In this document: positions 13,380 to 22,686 of the stretch, piece by piece
Position numbering within the stretch: the stretch's first letter is position 1
Layout: each line of letters begins with the position of its first letter
Assembly: GCA_900170005.1 (NCBI GenBank)
Contig: LT827128.1
Location: 434,001 to 498,000, forward strand
Direction: 5' to 3'
DNA length: 64,000 nt
Source of the DNA: Gordonibacter massiliensis (ex Traore et al. 2017)
GTDB taxonomy: Bacteria > Actinomycetota > Coriobacteriia > Coriobacteriales > Eggerthellaceae
The notes under the pieces: generated by a model
What the model was told of the DNA's origin: nothing
Databases searched by the model: none
The model's input: only the letters and a program-made list of their open reading frames with translations
Made by a program: the position numbers and the translations under genes

Positions 13380-13517
13380 GCGGATATTGTAGCGCAGCAG
13401 GGAGGGGTCGCGCGCGGCGAGCCCGGTTTCTCTTGGCGGCTCATTTGATGGGAGGGCTTCTGCGGCGTTTCACTATCGGAGAGAGAAGCGGACAAGCGAA
13501 TTGCTCGTCCTCCCCCT

Positions 13518-13531
13518 TCACCCTGGGGGGC
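13518..13531 (+). promoter_or_regulatory. 14-bp motif shared with 15307-15320, candidate activator site
   Basis: TCACCCTGGGGGGC occurs 106 bases before the MFS start and again, identical, 111 bases before the molybdopterin enzyme start. Similar distances to the two starts and the MalT-type regulator gene in the same locus make it a plausible binding site. Confidence 0.5.
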
Positions 13532-13636
13532 TATGTCCTTTTTCTCCACCGAAGTCGATCCTGTGTGCATGCGGGGCGATGCGCGCGACCCTCGCAGGCG
13601 AAAGAAGGAGACGGTTTCAGTAAGAAAGGGGATCTT

Positions 13637-14986
13637 ATGGGAAACGATGCAGCCGGCGCAACGGGTGCCGTCAAGGGGCATTTTTCGGTTGCGGATCGCA
13701 TGAATCGCATACCCACCTCGCCGCATACCACGCTCATCATCTTCTTTATTCTCATGAGCTGGTTTGCGGAGTGTATCGATCTGGGCGGCACCAGCTTCCT
13801 AATGCCGACCATCCGCGAGTACTTCGGCATGGACGCCGCCACGGGTGGGTACTACTCGTCCATCTGCTACCTGGGCATGTTCATCGGCGCCATCGCCGCA
13901 GGGCGAATCGCCGACAAGATCGGACGCAAGAAGGCGATGTCTGCATCGATGGTTATCTGGGGCGTTGCAGGCTTCGCGCTCGTGTTCTCGCCCAACATCT
14001 ACTACCTGTTCGCCATGCGCTTCATCCTGGGCCTCGGCCTGGGCGCCCAGTTCCCGGTCGCCCTCAGCTATATGAGCGAGATCGTGTCCGGCAAGGATCG
14101 ACCTCGATACATGACGCTCTACCAGCTCATGGCTCCGGTCGGCTTCGCCGTGGCCGGCGTGCTCACCGTGCTCATCCTGCCGCACTTCGACTGGCGCGGC
14201 GTGTACCTAGCCGAGGCCCTGCCCGCGCTGTTCATTATCGGCATCATCAAGGTCTGCCCCGAGTCGCCGCTGTGGCTGGAGGCGAAGGGCCGCTACGAGG
14301 AGGCCGACGCCATCTGCACGAAGTTCGAGGAAGAGGCCATCGCTAGGCACAAGGAGCTGCCTCCCGTCGTTGCCATCCCGCGCGTCGAGGGAAAGGCGTC
14401 TTTCAAGGACTTGTTCAGCAAGAAGTATCTCAAAGTCACCGTTCTTTGCTTCTTCATCTGGTTCATCTCGATGTTCAGCGATTATGGTCTCACCACTTGG
14501 CTCACGACGATTCTCATGGAGAAGGGCTTCGACGTGGTTTCCTCGACCGGCTTCGTGACCATTGGCATCTTCGGCGGTATTCCGGCTTGGTTCTTCGTGT
14601 CGTGGGCGGCCAAGAAGCTTGGGCGCAAAAAGACGTTCCTCATCGCCGGTTTGTGCACATCCGTTTTCGGCATAGCCTACGGGGCATCCGTCTCGCTCGT
14701 CATGTTGATCGTGTTCGGCGTTCTTTACCAATTCGGCAAATATGCCAACGCCATGTGCTTGGCGCTGTACACGCCGGAATTGTATGAAACAAACATCCGC
14801 ACGACCGGCAACGGCTTGGCCACTTCATGGGGACGCCTCGGTTCGATTGTAGGTCCGGTTATTTTGGCCGGCGTGATGACGAGCTTCGGGGTCTATACCA
14901 CGATGTACATAGCCGCCGCCATGGTTATCGTCCCCGGCTTGCTGGTGTTCCTGCTTGGCCCCGAGACGAAAGACAAGACATTCTAA
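13637..14986 (+). CDS. MFS transporter of the sugar/aromatic acid:H+ symporter group
   Basis: 449 residues and 12 predicted helices. The start at 13637 follows AGAAAGGGG; the longer frame from 13433 lacks a site. Typical MFS loop motifs are GRIADKIGRKKAMSA between helices 2 and 3, SEIVSGKDRPRYMTLYQ, and WAAKKLGRKKTF in the second half. The SHS/AAHS-like pattern suggests uptake of a small organic acid or aromatic compound. It is the first gene of a locus with a zinc-ribbon protein and a molybdopterin oxidoreductase, so it likely brings in the substrate or removes the product of that enzyme. Confidence 0.9.
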   Translation: MGNDAAGATGAVKGHFSVADRMNRIPTSPHTTLIIFFILMSWFAECIDLGGTSFLMPTIREYFGMDAATGGYYSSICYLGMFIGAIAAGRIADKIGRKKAMSASMVIWGVAGFALVFSPNIYYLFAMRFILGLGLGAQFPVALSYMSEIVSGKDRPRYMTLYQLMAPVGFAVAGVLTVLILPHFDWRGVYLAEALPALFIIGIIKVCPESPLWLEAKGRYEEADAICTKFEEEAIARHKELPPVVAIPRVEGKASFKDLFSKKYLKVTVLCFFIWFISMFSDYGLTTWLTTILMEKGFDVVSSTGFVTIGIFGGIPAWFFVSWAAKKLGRKKTFLIAGLCTSVFGIAYGASVSLVMLIVFGVLYQFGKYANAMCLALYTPELYETNIRTTGNGLATSWGRLGSIVGPVILAGVMTSFGVYTTMYIAAAMVIVPGLLVFLLGPETKDKTF

Positions 14987-15034
14987 ATTATGCGAATGGA
15001 TCCGCGCCCTTGCGGATTCGGATAGGAGACGCCC

Positions 15035-15292
15035 ATGTGCTTTAGGCCGGCTGATGTATCGATCGACCAAGGGGTCGACCAGTGTCCGGAATGCGGCAAA
15101 ACCATACAAGGCTTGGGAGGCGTGAGGTTGAAGGAATGCCCGTTCTGCAAATGCGACTTTGCGCTGTATCTCGATGGAGCCAAGCCATTGCCGGCGACGA
15201 CTTCCTCGGCAGGTGCTCCGAGCGCTCCAGGTGCTCCGAGGGCCCCGAAGGCGTCTGTCGCACCGAGAGCGCCGAAGGCTCCGACGCTTTGA
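15035..15292 (+). CDS. small zinc-ribbon protein with an Ala/Pro-rich tail
   Basis: 85 residues. DQCPECGKTIQ and LKECPFCKCDFALY give two CxxC pairs, a rubredoxin/zinc-ribbon arrangement. The last 35 residues are a low-complexity repeat of GAPSAPGAPRAPKA type. GATAGGAGACGCCC provides the ribosome site. It lies between the transporter and the molybdopterin enzyme genes. It could be an iron or zinc protein acting in electron delivery or enzyme maturation; nothing in the sequence decides this. Confidence 0.75.
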   Translation: MCFRPADVSIDQGVDQCPECGKTIQGLGGVRLKECPFCKCDFALYLDGAKPLPATTSSAGAPSAPGAPRAPKASVAPRAPKAPTL

Positions 15293-15306
15293 GGGTGTTC
15301 GAGAAC

Positions 15307-15320
15307 TCACCCTGGGGGGC
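15307..15320 (+). promoter_or_regulatory. second copy of the shared 14-bp motif
   Basis: Identical TCACCCTGGGGGGC, upstream of the molybdopterin oxidoreductase gene and 14 bases past the zinc-ribbon stop. It suggests a separate regulated promoter for the enzyme gene. Confidence 0.5.
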
Positions 15321-15430
15321 GATACCCGAGAGCGCGGAACGGTTCCATGCTGTACGCGGAACCGAGATGTGGCCGAGGACGGCCAACGGGGTTGCGTCGG
15401 TTGAACGTAACGACAAGAGGAGGTAAGAGC

Positions 15431-18229
15431 ATGACTGAGGAAATCGAAGCGCGGCAATCGAAGAAACAGGCTGATGATCAGCCTCTGAAGCTCGGGCGCC
15501 GCGGAACCCGCAGCGACGGGCTCCATATCCAGATGTACGAGAACCGCTATGTCGACGAAGACGGCGTCATGTGGGTCAAGTCCCGCTGCTGGGGGTGCCA
15601 TTGCAACTGCGGCATGCTCGTTGGCGTTAAGCCCGACGGCACCATCGAGGAAATTCGTCCGAACGAAGAGCAGGACACGGTGATGTGCGAGCGCGTGGGC
15701 GAGCACGGCGAGCGCATGATGAAGTTCCATTACCACAAGGATCGCATCAACTACGCGCTCAAGCGCGTGGGCGAGCGTGGCGAGGGCAAGTGGGAGCAGA
15801 TACCCTACGAGCAGGCGCTCGACGAGATCGCGGAAAAGCTTGACAAGCTTAAGAAGGAATACGGTCCCGAGACGCTGGCCATTTCCGAGGGCACGTACCG
15901 TTCGGGCCATCTCTGGGCGCGTTGCCGCTTCACGAACCTGTGGGGTAACCCCTGCAACCTGCTCGACCCCGGTCAAATCTGCTGGACTTGGATCTACGCC
16001 ATTAACATGGCGATATGCGGGTTCCAGATCGAGCTCTCGCTGCCGCCGACCATCTTTTATTCCAACTGCATCGTGCAGTGGGGCATCAACCCGAACCAGA
16101 AATACGGCCCCAAGGCCCCTGCATGGCGCCTGTACGAGCAGGTGCTCGCCAAATCCGATCGCCCGCGCATCATCGTGGTGGATCCCGAGGGCATCGAGAT
16201 GACGCGCCATGCCGATTTCTGGTTGCAGCCTCGTCCCGGCTCCGACCTGTCGATCATGATCGCTTGGGCGAACGTCATCCTCGCCGAAGGGCTTTACGAC
16301 GAGGCGTTTTTGAAGAATTGGACGAACACGACCTTCCTAATCCATGCCGAAACCAAGAAGCTGTTGCGGGCGAGCGACCTTGTCGAGGGCGGAAGCGCCG
16401 ATGATTTCGTGGCGTGGGATGAGGTCGCGGGAGAGCCGGTTGTATGGCTTTCCGATCAGTGCCGCTACGAGCGCGACGGCGTCGACAACGCTCTGTGGGG
16501 CGCCGACTTCAAGGTCAAGCTTGCGGACGGGTCGGAGATTACGGCCAAGACGGCCTTGAACGAGATATGGGACCGTATACGCGAGAACACGCCCGAAGTG
16601 GCCTCTGAAGTGTCGGGCGTTCCGGTGCGCAAGATCCGCGAAGCGGCGCGCTGCTATGCCGAGAACACTCCCGGCGTCATTATCTGGGGAATCGGCGGAG
16701 GCGATCAGCATGGTTACAACGCAACGGGTTCGGCGATAGCGAAGACCTTGCTGCGAGCCCTTACCGGCAACGTCGACGTTCTCGGCGGCGAATACGTGGG
16801 CGAACCCGGACCGGTTATGAGCAACGGCATGTTCCCCTTGCGCGAGTCCGAGATGGAGATGGCGTTCAAGGTCGAGCCGGAAACGCGGAAAAAGCTGCTG
16901 GGCGGAGACGTGAACCGCTTGGTGGGCTGGGAGGGCTTCGAGCCCATCGACGAGTGCTTCCAGAAGATGTGGCGCATCCCCCGTCCGCAAACGCACCAGC
17001 TGCTCGCCTCCGCTCCCATCGGTTTCCGCGCCATGATCACGGGAGATCCGTATCCGGTGAAGGCGTGCATCGTGTGGCATTCGAACCCGATGGCCTGGAT
17101 GGGCGACACGCATATGGTGCACGAGGCGCTCACGAGCCTCGACCTGCTGGTCGTGCTTGATTACTGGATGACGCCGACCGCCGCCTTGGCCGATTACGTC
17201 ATGCCCGCGGCCGACTGGATGGAGCGTCCGACGTGCACGACTTCGGAGGATTCCTCCGACTACATGATCTTGGGCGACCGTGCGGTCGTCCCCGAAGGAG
17301 AGCGCCACGTCGACTACGATTTCTTCCGCGGTTTGGGCGTCCGCCTTGGGCAGGAGGAATACTGGCCGTGGCCCACTTACGAGGACGCCATCGAGTACCG
17401 CGTCGCGCGCGTCGGCCTCACGTACGAAGAGGCGGTCGAACAGGGTGCGCTCTTCTCCGAGATGCGCTTCAACAAGCACGAGGAAGTGCTGCCGAACGGC
17501 AACAAGCGCGGCTTCGCCACGAGGTCCCATCGCATGGAGGTGTTCTCGTCCATCATCCAAGACGTTGGGTTCGATCCCGTGCCCGAGTACCGCGAGCTGC
17601 CCGACACCGCGCGCTCCAATCCGAAAATGGCCGAAGAGTACCCGATCACCTGCACCACGGGCGGGCGCTTCGTCCCGATGTTCCATTCGGAGTTTCGCCA
17701 ACTAGGGCTGGGCACGCGAGAGCAGTGGCCGTGGCCGTACTTCACCATCAACCGTCGCACCGCCCAAGATCTGGGAATCCGCGATGGCGACTGGTGTTGG
17801 ATTGAGAACAAGCGCGGTCGCATTCGCCAGAAGGCGAAGCTGACCACTTCCATCGGTCGCGACGTCGTCTCGGTGCAGGCTAGCTGGTGGTTCCCCGAGC
17901 TTCCCATGACCGAACCCTGCCTCGGAGGAATTTGGGAGTCGAACGCCAACGTGCTGACCAATTCCGATCCCGAAGCTATGGACCCGGCATGCGGCTGCTG
18001 GCATGACCGCGGCTTCTTGGTGAAAGTGTACCGCTGCGACGAGGCGTTCCCAAGCGAGCATATCGTGCCGAAGGTCCCCATCGAAGATTCCATTCCGGTG
18101 GTCATTCCGCCGGCGGATCGAGCCCTCACCCCGATGGGCCCGGTGCGCGAGGACAATTACGGACCTTACGGCTCCGAATGGGGAACCTGCCCCGACACGC
18201 CGATGGAGTGGGCGATCCACGAGGGGTAG
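15431..18229 (+). CDS. molybdopterin (bis-MGD) oxidoreductase, cytoplasmic; candidate catechol-dehydroxylase-like enzyme
   Basis: 932 residues, starting at the ATG after AGAGGAGGTAAGAGC. An N-terminal [4Fe-4S] motif is formed by Cys53, Cys56, Cys60 and Cys86 (CWGCHCNCG and DTVMCERVG). The molybdopterin domains of the DMSO-reductase family follow. Cys184 in GQICWTW is a candidate metal ligand; family position suggests it but sequence alone cannot prove it. The C-terminal MGD-binding domain starts near ITCTTGGRFVPMFHSEFRQL. There is no Tat signal, so it works in the cytoplasm, as acetylene hydratase and pyrogallol transhydroxylase do. The locus supplies a transporter, ferredoxin, chaperone and regulator. 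Gut Eggerthellaceae use relatives to dehydroxylate catechols; that role is inferred here. Confidence 0.9.
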   Translation: MTEEIEARQSKKQADDQPLKLGRRGTRSDGLHIQMYENRYVDEDGVMWVKSRCWGCHCNCGMLVGVKPDGTIEEIRPNEEQDTVMCERVGEHGERMMKFHYHKDRINYALKRVGERGEGKWEQIPYEQALDEIAEKLDKLKKEYGPETLAISEGTYRSGHLWARCRFTNLWGNPCNLLDPGQICWTWIYAINMAICGFQIELSLPPTIFYSNCIVQWGINPNQKYGPKAPAWRLYEQVLAKSDRPRIIVVDPEGIEMTRHADFWLQPRPGSDLSIMIAWANVILAEGLYDEAFLKNWTNTTFLIHAETKKLLRASDLVEGGSADDFVAWDEVAGEPVVWLSDQCRYERDGVDNALWGADFKVKLADGSEITAKTALNEIWDRIRENTPEVASEVSGVPVRKIREAARCYAENTPGVIIWGIGGGDQHGYNATGSAIAKTLLRALTGNVDVLGGEYVGEPGPVMSNGMFPLRESEMEMAFKVEPETRKKLLGGDVNRLVGWEGFEPIDECFQKMWRIPRPQTHQLLASAPIGFRAMITGDPYPVKACIVWHSNPMAWMGDTHMVHEALTSLDLLVVLDYWMTPTAALADYVMPAADWMERPTCTTSEDSSDYMILGDRAVVPEGERHVDYDFFRGLGVRLGQEEYWPWPTYEDAIEYRVARVGLTYEEAVEQGALFSEMRFNKHEEVLPNGNKRGFATRSHRMEVFSSIIQDVGFDPVPEYRELPDTARSNPKMAEEYPITCTTGGRFVPMFHSEFRQLGLGTREQWPWPYFTINRRTAQDLGIRDGDWCWIENKRGRIRQKAKLTTSIGRDVVSVQASWWFPELPMTEPCLGGIWESNANVLTNSDPEAMDPACGCWHDRGFLVKVYRCDEAFPSEHIVPKVPIEDSIPVVIPPADRALTPMGPVREDNYGPYGSEWGTCPDTPMEWAIHEG

Positions 18230-18240
18230 GGGCATGCATG

Positions 18241-18283
18241 CCTCCGGGGGGGGTCGCGAGACGTGCGCGGAGCCCCCCGGAGG
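18241..18283 (+). promoter_or_regulatory. 11-bp hairpin between the molybdopterin enzyme and ferredoxin genes
   Basis: CCTCCGGGGGG (18241-18251) pairs exactly with CCCCCCGGAGG (18273-18283) around a 21-nt loop. It starts 12 bases after the enzyme stop and ends just before the ferredoxin ribosome site, with no U tract. It may stabilise the upstream mRNA or lower expression of the distal genes relative to the enzyme. Confidence 0.55.
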
Positions 18284-18299
18284 GAAGGAGAGGGTGACG

Positions 18300-18560
18300 G
18301 TGTCTTCGCCGGAATTTTATCGGTCCGCCTGCTTCGCGCCAAAGATAGACCGAACTCGATGCGGCCTGTGCTTGCGTTGCGTCGAGGCGTGCGGGCTGGG
18401 GGTGATCGCGTATCGGAAGGAAACGGGGTTCGCGGCGGCGCGCGGCGTCTGCCGGAACTGCCGAAGATGCGTTGAGGCGTGCGGGAGGGGAGCGATTTCA
18501 ATCGAAGCCATGTTAAAGGGCTCTCCTTCGGTTTGGCAATCTAAAGGCCGGGAGCCGTAA
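18300..18560 (+). CDS. small ferredoxin with two [4Fe-4S] motifs
   Basis: 86 residues from the GTG at 18300, which lies 9 bases from AAGGAG; a GTG at 18294 and an ATG at 18234 are poorer. CGLCLRCVEAC and CRNCRRCVEAC are two CxxCxxCxxxC motifs, the second flanked by Arg residues. There is no membrane segment. It probably delivers electrons to the molybdopterin enzyme in the cytoplasm. The trigger-factor-like gene follows 29 bases later. Confidence 0.88.
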   Translation: MSSPEFYRSACFAPKIDRTRCGLCLRCVEACGLGVIAYRKETGFAAARGVCRNCRRCVEACGRGAISIEAMLKGSPSVWQSKGREP

Positions 18561-18589
18561 GGCGATCGGGTTCTGCAAGGGAGGACGAC

Positions 18590-19927
18590 ATGGCTCGGAG
18601 CACGGTAATCGAAATCGACTCGTCGAAAATTCGCGTGGACATGGTCGTGGGGGCGAGCGAGGTCGACGCGGCGATCGACGGCGCGCGGGCTGTCGTAGCG
18701 CAGCTCAAAACCCGTCCTCTCGGCGAGAGACAGATCGGGACCGATCCCGAGAAGGCCGTGGAGGGCGCCGTGGCAACCCGCGCCACGCGCGCCGTTGCCG
18801 AGCGTGCCATCAGGGAAGCCGTCGAGGAAAACGGGCTGCGCCTCGCAGCGCCTCCCAAAGCGGATATCGACCGATTGGTCGCACCCGGTTTCGACTACGC
18901 GTTCTCGGTGGTTCTGGACTTGGTTCCCGAGTTGTCCCTGTCCGATCTCGACGGCCTCGTTGCGCGCGTCGAGACGTCTCCCGAAGTTGCCCCGGAGGAC
19001 GTCGATGCGCGCATCGACGAGGTTCGCTTCCGCTCGGCAACCGTGCAAAGGGATTCGCTCGAGCCTATTTCCGAAGACGATTTCGTGGAGCTTTCGTTCG
19101 AAAGCTTCATCGACGGGAGGCCGTACGAGGGAAACGTCGCCGAAAAGTACCTGTACGCGATGGGCTCCCGCACCTTGCCGTGCGCCTTCGAGGACGGGCT
19201 TGTCGGTTTGCGCAGCGGGGATGCGGCCACCATCGAGTTCACGGTTCCCCTCGATTACGAGAATCGCGAGCTGGCCGGCAGAAAGGCTCGGTTCGACGTC
19301 GTGATTGGAAGGGTGGCGTCCCACACGATGCCCGAGGCCGACGACGATTTCGCCCGTACGTTCGGCTACGAGAGCATGGCCGTCTGGCGCGAAAAGCTCT
19401 TCGTCGATTTGGCGTCCCGGAAGCAAGCTGCTTATCGGGATGCTTGCGAAAAGGCCGCTCGCGCTGCACTGGCGGACCGTTTGACGGGCGATGTCGACCA
19501 GAATCTGCTCGACCGTCACGCGGAAGGGATGTACCAGGCGTTCAGGAGGGATCTGCTTCAGCAGGGTGTTTCCTTCGACGATTACCTTGACCGCCTTGGC
19601 CTTACCGAGACGGATGTCAGAAGAGGGATAAAGGAGGAAAGCGATGTCTTTGTTCGCGAGAATTTAGCGTTGGAAAGCCTGTTTCGCATGTTAGGGTACG
19701 TGATAACCGACGAGGACGTGCAAATCACGTTGAACGAACTGGCCGGGGAAGGCGCTTTGGGTGTGAAAAACCCAGAATTATTCTCACATGACCAGATGAC
19801 GGCCTTGAGGGAGATGACCGTGCATCGCAAGGCGACGGAATGGCTTCTCGCGCATGTGAGATTCGAAGCGGAGGCGAGCTCGGCTTGCGTCAGCGTTTCG
19901 GGCTCGACGCCCTCGAACGCAGCGTAA
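18590..19927 (+). CDS. trigger factor paralogue (chaperone/PPIase), probably dedicated to the molybdopterin enzyme
   Basis: 445 residues with the full trigger factor order: N-terminal domain (about 1-110), FKBP-type PPIase domain (about 150-245, with DFVELSFESFIDGRPYEGN and GFEDGI-like AFEDGLVGLRSGD), and a helical C-terminal domain. The ribosome-docking signature GFRxGKxP is replaced by RPLGERQIG, so general nascent-chain work is unlikely. Lying between the ferredoxin and regulator genes, it looks like a private folding or cofactor-insertion factor. The housekeeping tig gene is expected elsewhere in the genome. Confidence 0.87.
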   Translation: MARSTVIEIDSSKIRVDMVVGASEVDAAIDGARAVVAQLKTRPLGERQIGTDPEKAVEGAVATRATRAVAERAIREAVEENGLRLAAPPKADIDRLVAPGFDYAFSVVLDLVPELSLSDLDGLVARVETSPEVAPEDVDARIDEVRFRSATVQRDSLEPISEDDFVELSFESFIDGRPYEGNVAEKYLYAMGSRTLPCAFEDGLVGLRSGDAATIEFTVPLDYENRELAGRKARFDVVIGRVASHTMPEADDDFARTFGYESMAVWREKLFVDLASRKQAAYRDACEKAARAALADRLTGDVDQNLLDRHAEGMYQAFRRDLLQQGVSFDDYLDRLGLTETDVRRGIKEESDVFVRENLALESLFRMLGYVITDEDVQITLNELAGEGALGVKNPELFSHDQMTALREMTVHRKATEWLLAHVRFEAEASSACVSVSGSTPSNAA

Positions 19928-19974
19928 CGGGTTGCGCTCCGTTCGAGGGCGGCTCTAATCGTCCAAGGGGAAGG

Positions 19975-22671
19975 ATGGGTTCGATGGGGCAAGCAGCGCG
20001 CTATGCGGTTCCAGCCGCTCGGGGCGGTGACGTGTCCGTCGCACGGCTTGACGCAATGGTGATGCGCGGGGTGGAAAAACCCCTGATGCTCATCACGGGT
20101 CCTTTCGGATCGGGCAAGACCACGCTTGCCGCCTCGGTAGCGCGAAAGGTCGAGACTCGCGACGGATGGGTTGCTGCGTGGATACCGGCAACGGTGCTTG
20201 ACAGCGATCTTTCCGTATTCGGGCGGCGAGTAGTCGAGGCTCTGCAAGAAGCGCTTGGCGAGAGATGCGCGGCCTTTCCCGAGTTGTCAGCCGAGCTGAA
20301 CGGGCCCTGCTTCGATTGGCCGGCTTGGGCGCATTCGTTTTCTGAATGGGCGGTCGCCGAAGACGTGCAGGTGCTTTGCGTGGTCAATAATGCGCAGATG
20401 CTGACGAGCGAAGGGGTCGTTTCCTTTTTGGAAGGCTTTGTCGGCTCGGCGACGGGCAACGTTCATCTCGTGCTGGCAGGTAGATGGAATCCCGGCATCT
20501 CTTTGTCCCGCTTCCGATTGAACGACTCCGTCGAAGAGGTGAGAGCGAGCGACCTAGCGCTCACGGAGCAGGAGTCGATCCGCTTTCTCAGGGAGCAGGG
20601 AGTGAAGCTTCCCGCCTCCGCAGTCCATGAAGCCCACCAGCTCACCTTGGGATGGGTAGCTGGATTGCAGATGCTGTCCAATGCCGTCAAGGAAAAGCGG
20701 TCGGGATTCGCCTTGGAGGATTTCAAGGCAGACGACCAATGGATCGTCGATTTGTTGCAAGAGGAGATCATGCCCGGTTTGAGCGACGAGGCGCAACAGG
20801 CCATGCTCAGGACTTGTCTTCTCGATCGGCTGTGCAAAGCTCTTTTCGAGGAGCTGACGGAAATCGACCGCGGCGGTCGCGTTATGCACGAGCTGACGAC
20901 GGCGAACGTGTTGGTGCCCCTGCGGGACGACGAGACCTTCCCTGAAGATGAGGCATGGTTCAGGTACCATCCGCTTTTCACGGGCGCGCTTCGCCATATC
21001 ATGTTCTCAGAAGTACCTTCCCTCGAAGTGAGGGAGGCGGCACTGGTCGCCGTCGATTGGTACGAGAGCGCAGGTAGGTACGGGCTTGCGATCAAGACGG
21101 CTCTTGCCCAGGGCGAGTACACGCGCGCGTTTGACCTCATGTCGAGCCATCTCTATGCGATCCTCGCGCATACCGACAGCTCGGTTCTTCCCCGATGGCT
21201 TGAAGGCCTGCCCCATCCCCATCGCGAGGACGAGTATTTGTATTTCCTCATCAACGCGTGGGCGAACTTCATTGCAGGAAAAACGAAACGTGCTCAAATA
21301 TGGCTTCAACAGGCAGAATCTCGCTCTTCCGACAGTGGGCTGTCGGTTTATCGAGGAGCCAATTGCGTGTACCAAACCGTGAAGGTCGGCACCATGGCGT
21401 TTGCGGGCGAGTACCATAGGACGATCGAGCTCGGATCTTCCTTGCTCGACAACCTCGGGGGCCCGCAACTGTTCTTGCGTTGTACGATCATGCACAATAT
21501 GGGAGAGGCTTTCCAGCGGTTGGGTAGATATCAAGAGGCTTATGAGTACTTCATGCGGGCGCGGGTGAACGCCGAGATCGCAGGGCGTCGGACTATCGAG
21601 CTGCTTTGCGCGTGCGAGATCAGCTGGCTTCAGTACGCGCAAGGACAACTCGACGCTTCGTCGAACACGGCCATGCGCGCCCTTGCCTCTTGCAGCGACG
21701 AGGAGCGGCGGGCTTCCTGGTCGGTAGGGTTGTTGCATGTGGCCCTCGCTCGCGTGTACCTCTGCTGGGACGAGGTCGACAAGGCCCTCGAACATCTGAG
21801 CGAGGCGTTCCGAATGCTCGGACCCACGACGAATTGCGATGGGTATTTGGAGGCCCGCGTAGTTTTAGCGAAGTGCAAGCGGGCACATGGCGAGATGGAG
21901 GACGCCTACGACATCCTTGTCGGAGCCTACGAGCTGCTCAAGACAGACAAAGTGCCGCGTGGGGTGAACCTCTTGATCCTTACGGTCTTTGCGGAGAGCC
22001 TTGTCGACATGGGGCAGGTTGAGCGGGCGCGGTCGGTGCTCGACGAAGCGCGTCTCCAAACATGTCAAGAGGACGCGTTCTACCAGGTTGCCGAATCATG
22101 CGTGGCCGCTCGCATCGACATGGCCGAAGGTCGTTTCGACGAGGCGTTGAAACGCTTGGCCGACGCGCGATCCAATGCGCTGTTGGCGGGTCTCGCGCTG
22201 CAGGGGCATGACTGCCTGGTTTTCTCTGCGTGCGCCCTGTTCGCGTCGGGATCGAGGGCCGAAGCGGTGACGTTGATGTCCGAGGCGCTTGACGAGGCGT
22301 CTGACGAGGGACATGTCCATGCATTCAGGCGCGGTGTGCCCCTGCTCGATGCGCTGGTGTACGAGATCGCGCATCCCGCGAACAGCAATCTGGTTCTGAC
22401 GAACGAACGTCGGAAGGCTCGGAAGTTCGCTGAAGAGCTTATGGAACGGGAGATGCCCATCGAGTTATCGACGGACAAAGCGGGTGCGGGCTCGTGCGAA
22501 GATGTCGAAATTCTCCTGTCCGATCGCGAGCGACAGGTTTACCGTCTGCTTAAGCAGGGAAAGACGAGGCGGCAGATATCGGAGGAGTTGGGCATCAGCC
22601 TCAACACGGTGAGGACGCACGTTCGCAGCATTTACGAGAAGACCGGTGTGCACGATCGATCGTTGCTCTAG
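19975..22671 (+). CDS. MalT-type LuxR family transcriptional regulator (large ATP-binding activator)
   Basis: 898 residues. Walker A GPFGSGKT at 42-49 in an AAA/STAND-type ATPase domain, a helical TPR-like middle, and a C-terminal LuxR HTH (SDRERQVYRLLKQGKTRRQ to NTVRTHVRSIYEKTG) that ends 8 residues from the stop. The start may be the ATG at 19975 or at 19984, both after AAGGGGAAGG. Proteins of this plan bind an inducer and ATP, then oligomerise and activate transcription. It is the last gene of the locus, 47 bases after the chaperone gene, and is the natural candidate for substrate-dependent induction. Confidence 0.92.
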   Translation: MGSMGQAARYAVPAARGGDVSVARLDAMVMRGVEKPLMLITGPFGSGKTTLAASVARKVETRDGWVAAWIPATVLDSDLSVFGRRVVEALQEALGERCAAFPELSAELNGPCFDWPAWAHSFSEWAVAEDVQVLCVVNNAQMLTSEGVVSFLEGFVGSATGNVHLVLAGRWNPGISLSRFRLNDSVEEVRASDLALTEQESIRFLREQGVKLPASAVHEAHQLTLGWVAGLQMLSNAVKEKRSGFALEDFKADDQWIVDLLQEEIMPGLSDEAQQAMLRTCLLDRLCKALFEELTEIDRGGRVMHELTTANVLVPLRDDETFPEDEAWFRYHPLFTGALRHIMFSEVPSLEVREAALVAVDWYESAGRYGLAIKTALAQGEYTRAFDLMSSHLYAILAHTDSSVLPRWLEGLPHPHREDEYLYFLINAWANFIAGKTKRAQIWLQQAESRSSDSGLSVYRGANCVYQTVKVGTMAFAGEYHRTIELGSSLLDNLGGPQLFLRCTIMHNMGEAFQRLGRYQEAYEYFMRARVNAEIAGRRTIELLCACEISWLQYAQGQLDASSNTAMRALASCSDEERRASWSVGLLHVALARVYLCWDEVDKALEHLSEAFRMLGPTTNCDGYLEARVVLAKCKRAHGEMEDAYDILVGAYELLKTDKVPRGVNLLILTVFAESLVDMGQVERARSVLDEARLQTCQEDAFYQVAESCVAARIDMAEGRFDEALKRLADARSNALLAGLALQGHDCLVFSACALFASGSRAEAVTLMSEALDEASDEGHVHAFRRGVPLLDALVYEIAHPANSNLVLTNERRKARKFAEELMEREMPIELSTDKAGAGSCEDVEILLSDRERQVYRLLKQGKTRRQISEELGISLNTVRTHVRSIYEKTGVHDRSLL

Positions 22672-22686
22672 GCTTTTGCTCGTTGG

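Follow-up and report, generated by a model that had tools for sequence, protein, structure and literature searches.

The window, the 64,000-nucleotide stretch of DNA analysed in this study, covers positions 434001-498000 of the single-contig genome (3,948,172 bases) of Gordonibacter massiliensis. A sequence-only reading of this DNA had described six genes on one strand, and six plus-strand open reading frames were found where it had put them, with start sites slightly corrected. The features, in window coordinates, are as follows.

13405..22685, no strand assigned: accessory cassette with the six genes (blastn against Gordonibacter genomes and G+C)
13637..14986, + strand: MFS transporter P0001 (PF07690, E 8e-53)
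15035..15292, + strand: zinc-ribbon protein P0006, 85 aa, CxxC...CxxC, starting MCFRP, with an Ala/Pro-rich tail
15431..18229, + strand: Tat-less bis-MGD Mo/W enzyme, acetylene-hydratase-like (Pfam, NCBIfam, PDB search, fold, trees)
15431..15541, + strand: N-terminal extension of this enzyme, about 37 residues, with PLKLGRRGTRSDGLH (orthologue alignment and structure model)
18294..18560, + strand: 2[4Fe-4S] ferredoxin, putative electron-transfer partner (domain search; GTG start)
18590..19927, + strand: trigger-factor paralogue P0004 (Trigger_C, Trigger_N, FKBP_C, TIGR00115, fold)
19975..22671, + strand: soluble MalT-type STAND ATPase/TPR/LuxR regulator P0005 (NF003420, TPR_MalT, GerE)

The gaps between the six genes measure 29-138 bp, sizes compatible with one operon; promoter and terminator scans of the module scored no better than shuffles. 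Domain searches identified every part of the proposed self-contained cytoplasmic bis-MGD module: besides the enzyme, these are a transporter, a ferredoxin, a MalT-type regulator and a trigger-factor-like chaperone of its own. When the window was compared by blastn with three other Gordonibacter genomes, including Gordonibacter sp. 28C (NZ_PPTR01000001), the alignment ended at 13402-13404 and restarted at 22686; at the same site these genomes hold about 1.9-2.5 kb of unrelated DNA in exchange for 9.28 kb. The span originally suggested for the locus, 13518-22671, thus nearly coincides with the DNA that they lack (13405-22685). G+C content drops to 60.6% in the module from 66.8-67.3% in the DNA on either side. 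Because three other Gordonibacter species hold unrelated DNA at this exact site, 13405-22685 is, to judge by its sequence, an accessory cassette that is horizontally movable and swappable. Orthologues of the enzyme (80-83% identity) occurred in two other records only, a sheep-ileum Eggerthellaceae MAG and an uncultured Coriobacteriia MAG. In both loci the enzyme is likewise followed by the ferredoxin and then the trigger factor, and a MalT-type regulator is close by.

Phylogeny and active site of the bis-MGD enzyme

The enzyme has 932 aa and matches the Molybdopterin (1e-24) and Molydop_binding (1e-14) models. Its Fe-S motif, CWGCHCNC, is a canonical CxxCxxxC, and a Tat signal was looked for in the sequence and found absent, as expected of the cytoplasmic [4Fe-4S] enzyme first described. 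The 4x[4Fe-4S] subunit and membrane anchor that are traits of the Eggerthella-type dehydroxylases were not among the module's genes. Scores fell far under all cut-offs of the curated NCBIfam models for named enzymes, including Fdh-alpha (204 of 666 bits) and DMSO_red_II (260 of 985 bits) for formate dehydrogenases and respiratory reductases, and placement in the DMSO-reductase superfamily holds. The nearest PDB sequence is acetylene hydratase (E 7e-94), which also ranks first in a Foldseek search of the structure model (TMt 0.91; model pLDDT 82.7). The kinship with pyrogallol transhydroxylase that had been considered found no echo, this enzyme being absent from the PDB matches at E 1e-5.

Phylogenetic placement was based on a 120-sequence tree, a 29-sequence mixture-model tree and an AU test for forced grouping. 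In the 120-sequence tree, the window enzyme falls with full support in an Eggerthellaceae clade of 21 sequences of about 880-930 aa. In both trees, this clade is nested among environmental acetylene-hydratase-like enzymes of Chloroflexota, Deltaproteobacteria and Moorella, and stands apart from the Gordonibacter-type and Eggerthella-type dehydroxylases. The anchors of the two dehydroxylase clades were recognised from their gene context rather than from sequence accessions. The Gordonibacter-type anchor is an enzyme adjoining a PF04909 hydrolase, in an arrangement that matches the ellagic acid (eam) cluster (PMC12771579); the anchor of the Eggerthella Tat clade is an E. lenta locus whose divergent TM-LuxR and LysR genes match dadR/dadS (PMC9734109). 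In the present genome, positions 714001-740000 carry two MFS genes, a PF04909 hydrolase, an Fe-S protein, a Gordonibacter-type enzyme and a TM-LuxR gene, and by this content appear to be the ellagic acid (eam) cluster. Thirty-two Gordonibacter-type sequences were selected by their GCHxxCG signature, in which the first cluster Cys is missing, and all of them fall in one clade of the 120-sequence tree. A tree constrained to unite the window clade with the Gordonibacter-type dehydroxylases was rejected (AU p 8e-8). Membership of a catechol dehydroxylase clade was dismissed on the trees and this test, the enzyme lying outside both characterised clades. Acetylene hydratase, the other relative suggested at the outset, proved to be the nearest solved one by sequence and fold and a member of the same phylogenetic assemblage. 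In neither tree did the enzyme group with formate dehydrogenases or respiratory reductases, the outcome that the sequence-only reading had set against itself.

In acetylene hydratase, we take Asp13 to be the catalytic residue, Cys141 the metal ligand, and Ile142, Trp179, Trp293 and Trp472 a hydrophobic ring. The metal-ligand Cys is kept in every group aligned and is predicted to be Cys184, the Mo ligand, in the window enzyme. At the Asp13 position, His occurs in 20 of the 21 window-clade enzymes, including the window enzyme and both orthologues, and in 32/32 Gordonibacter-type dehydroxylases; the Eggerthella type has Gly. The first cluster Cys, absent in all 32 Gordonibacter-type sequences, is present in the window enzyme, and its ring positions read Trp, Gly, Trp and Glu. 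Acetylene hydratase function was dismissed: because Asp13 is replaced by His and the ring residues Ile142, Trp179 and Trp472 are altered, the enzyme should not be an acetylene hydratase in function. The His beside the cluster Cys is a reasonable candidate for a proton donor.

A two-cluster ferredoxin adjoins nearly every enzyme of the clade (the automatic label used in the clade survey missed the window's own, which was annotated directly). This recurrence favours a redox reaction, presumably a reduction, over hydration. A non-redox reaction is possible, because acetylene hydratase is not a redox enzyme.

Transporter and regulator

The best NCBIfam subfamily of transporter P0001 was TIGR00895, aromatic acid/H+ symport, at 223 bits against a cut-off of 418. 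The two orthologous loci carry DASS-family carboxylate symporters and a lactate/oxalate-type MFS in place of a P0001-type MFS. The transporter had been expected to name an aromatic or diet-derived compound; it was dropped as an indicator of the substrate, since the orthologous loci use other transporter families. Because those families are carboxylate transporters, the substrate call stops at an organic anion. An organic acid or anion is the safest reading, and an aromatic substrate is a weaker possibility. An MFS copy 88% identical to P0001 lies elsewhere in the same genome (2530501-2550500), beside an unrelated long-branch Mo enzyme, and its sequence indicates an MFS recently shared between modules of one genome.

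Regulator P0005 matches NF003420 (243 bits, below cut-off), TPR_MalT (6e-31) and GerE (5e-14). The regulators characterised for catechol dehydroxylases are of LuxR type and contain 10-12 TM helices (PMC9734109); in P0005, 10-12 TM helices fused to the HTH are absent, and ATPase, MalT TPR and HTH regions are found instead. On the stretches compared, a MalT-type regulator lies within 5 kb of 10/13 clade members versus 1/55 other Mo enzymes (P 1e-8). In the sheep-ileum orthologous locus, the MalT-type gene is split into two reading frames (L038:6984-9758), which may be a frameshift or an assembly error. Going by known regulator families, the module is probably substrate-inducible.

A homologue of zinc-ribbon protein P0006 (50% identical) stands beside another trigger-factor/Mo locus (L110:12973-13203). 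Small zinc ribbons starting MCFRPA recur near trigger-factor genes and Mo enzymes (the same gene, L124:5411-6028 and window 15035-15292); among them, an Ala/Pro-rich tail was noted for the window protein.

Trigger-factor paralogues and molybdenum enzymes

P0004 has the domain order and fold of trigger factor (Trigger_C 8e-15, Trigger_N 3e-11, FKBP_C 3e-6; TIGR00115 192 bits against a cut-off of 180), and its top PDB folds are 1w26 and 2vrh. It is 22% identical to the genome's own tig. The FKBP (PPIase) domain is retained and still matches its Pfam model. The GFRxGK ribosome-docking motif, which the housekeeping tig has, is absent in P0004 and in all Mo-linked paralogues, and in all three orthologues the docking loop has become a conserved KxRPLGxxQ(L/I)G-like loop. 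In two other genera, a second trigger factor retains GFRKGKAP (L149, L150); therefore, duplication without loss of docking also occurs. The chaperone had been called the least described part of the locus, which was borne out, and P0004 turned out to belong to a recurring family.

A search with the tig model found in the own genome tig, a copy in the ribosomal-protein operon and further paralogues. The ribosomal-operon class (430-447 aa, without GFRxGK) is encoded within or next to that operon in the Eggerthellaceae genomes examined, among them E. lenta (L136:6940-8238; own genome 210375-211769), and was used as a control. Counting all TIGR00115 matches as paralogues was abandoned, as two of them (L111, L112) lack Trigger_C and one class is the ribosomal-operon one; the paralogue set comprises matches confirmed by Trigger_C, excluding tig and the ribosomal-operon copy. 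In the own genome, counted from tblastn-type match lists, each of the five paralogues has a Mo enzyme 275-3083 bp away (P 1.5e-4 under uniform placement). Under local shifts of up to 25 or 50 kb, which allow for Mo-gene clustering, P was 0.0004-0.002. Across 13 genomes, a Mo enzyme lies no more than 1 kb away from 17/35 paralogues versus 0/13 ribosomal-operon copies (P 0.0016). Five of the 35 have no Mo enzyme in the stretch examined; of these five, two or three are on short contigs or at contig ends. The paralogues form many families less than 38% identical, of which at least seven keep the Mo linkage in the same orientation. The Mo partners of one paralogue family are sister enzymes in the 120-sequence tree, and in several families the pairing is kept across genera. 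Within the window enzyme's own clade, 8/21 enzymes have a trigger-factor neighbour, two of the eight being short, weak matches. No trigger-factor gene was found beside the environmental acetylene-hydratase-like enzymes (loci L048-L083).

Residues 1-33 of the window enzyme are disordered in the structure model, and PLKLGRRGTRSDGLH in the N-terminal extension is common to the window enzyme and its two orthologues and missing from clade members without a full-length trigger factor. The extension is thus a candidate chaperone-docking tail.

TorD-family proteins do the corresponding maturation job for Tat-exported bis-MGD relatives. The own genome has 21 TorD genes (PF02613), and none was found within 93 kb of its trigger-factor-linked Mo loci. 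A TorD overlap was seen for 0/8 trigger-factor-linked enzymes versus 18/72 overall (P 0.19), so mutual exclusion of trigger factor and TorD was set aside as a trend only; most cytoplasmic Mo enzymes of this genome have neither neighbour. With the Trigger_C model, E. lenta yielded only tig and the ribosomal-operon copy. The dehydroxylases of that species are Tat-exported, and Eggerthella-type Dadh requires the TorD-like DadhF and other accessory proteins (PMC11887054). An open-access literature search for papers joining trigger factor to dehydroxylases, molybdenum, TorD or acetylene hydratase returned nothing relevant (subscription journals lay outside its scope); the pairing of trigger factor and Mo enzyme is provisionally new to the literature.

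Proposed function and comparison with known systems

Taken together, we consider it somewhat probable that the locus works as an import-and-reduce module under inducible control, and that the enzyme is matured by a trigger-factor descendant private to the module and independent of ribosomes. P0001 would bring in an organic acid, and P0005 would sense it and turn the operon on. The cytoplasmic bis-MGD enzyme, supplied with electrons by the module's own ferredoxin, would then carry out the reduction of this substrate. Loss of an oxygen function is the likeliest form of this step, and the His adjoining the cluster Cys may donate the proton. P0004, working off ribosomes, would serve as a private post-translational chaperone for folding and cofactor insertion. 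More broadly, and with a chance just under even, trigger factor may have been repeatedly duplicated and recruited in Eggerthellaceae as ribosome-independent, client-specific chaperones for cytoplasmic Mo/W enzymes, parallel to TorD/NarJ, here with a new MalT-regulated reductase clade distinct both from acetylene hydratase and from the known catechol dehydroxylases.

The catechol reading of the locus, as originally proposed, is partly supported. An ordinary catechol dehydroxylase locus, in which the para-hydroxyl of a catechol acid is removed in the Gordonibacter-type way with minor variation in regulator and chaperone, would fit the genus, the lack of Tat, and a gene set of ferredoxin, MFS and LuxR-family regulator that Gordonibacter dehydroxylase loci also have (PMC7028382, PMC12771579); the His beside the cluster is shared, and P0001 is closest to aromatic acid symporters. 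However, the tree position and AU test, a length of 932 aa against about 770-800, the canonical CxxCxxxC where the Gordonibacter type lacks the first Cys, a soluble MalT-type regulator in place of a 12-TM LuxR and the carboxylate transporters at the orthologous loci make this unlikely. More improbable still is an acetylene-hydratase-like reaction in which a non-redox hydratase or lyase would convert an unsaturated organic acid, with the ferredoxin merely keeping the metal reduced. Acetylene hydratase does require a reductant for activation, and its being the nearest solved fold and sequence, the common phylogenetic assemblage, the conserved Mo/W-ligand Cys and the same carboxylate transporters agree with such a reaction, but the essential Asp13 is His, the ring positions Ile142, Trp179 and Trp472 carry Trp, Gly and Glu, and a dedicated ferredoxin recurs next to clade members.

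The chaperone's role in the import-and-reduce module meets a separate objection, that the paralogues are general stress or cytosol chaperones hitch-hiking in accessory clusters and owe their closeness to Mo enzymes to regional crowding. The own genome has about 72 bis-MGD genes in 3.95 Mb, with dense groups at 0.2-0.45 Mb and 3.4-3.9 Mb, the regions that also hold the paralogues, and some paralogues lack a Mo neighbour. Against this, the linkage persists under local shifts, and the same families of paralogue and enzyme stay paired from genus to genus with unchanged orientation; we regard hitch-hiking as rather unlikely. Linkage to Mo enzymes falls short of proof of a client relationship.

Gut Coriobacteriia perform much drug and diet chemistry with dozens of bis-MGD enzymes, whose production in active form is difficult. 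If trigger-factor paralogues are maturation factors of the cytoplasmic relatives, this would explain failed expression, and the paralogues would mark enzyme-chaperone pairs in genomes. It would also mean that a nascent-chain chaperone of the ribosome had been converted to inserting cofactors into specific clients. The MalT-regulated clade would comprise uncharacterised, putative reductases across many gut genera.

Among known systems, the Gordonibacter-type enzymes (Dodh, Cldh, Gp Hcdh, Eadh1/2) resemble the module in their cytoplasmic bis-MGD enzyme without Tat, small Fe-S partner, MFS, LuxR-family regulator and His after the second cluster Cys. Unlike them, the window enzyme belongs to a separate clade, is longer and has the four-Cys motif intact, its regulator is soluble and MalT-type, and it is accompanied by a trigger-factor paralogue, which the open-access accounts of Gordonibacter-type loci consulted here do not mention. 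The Eggerthella type (Dadh, Hcdh, Cadh) shares the bis-MGD fold, a dedicated Fe-S partner and dedicated accessory genes including a chaperone, but is Tat-exported, membrane-anchored, under 12-TM LuxR control and served by a TorD-like chaperone. Acetylene hydratase (Pelobacter acetylenicus, 2e7z), the closest solved structure, has the same metal-ligand Cys and Fe-S motif spacing, whereas the window enzyme has His for Asp13, most ring residues changed, 200 residues more and its own ferredoxin. P0004 carries Trigger_N, FKBP and Trigger_C in the same order as housekeeping tig, but lacks the GFRxGK loop, is only distantly identical to it and sits in an enzyme operon rather than at the tig locus. 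Its proposed role as a private bis-MGD maturation chaperone parallels that of TorD/NarJ proteins, which are an unrelated family with mostly Tat-exported clients and are not found near the trigger-factor-linked loci, where P0004 and its relatives may do the equivalent work in the cytoplasm.
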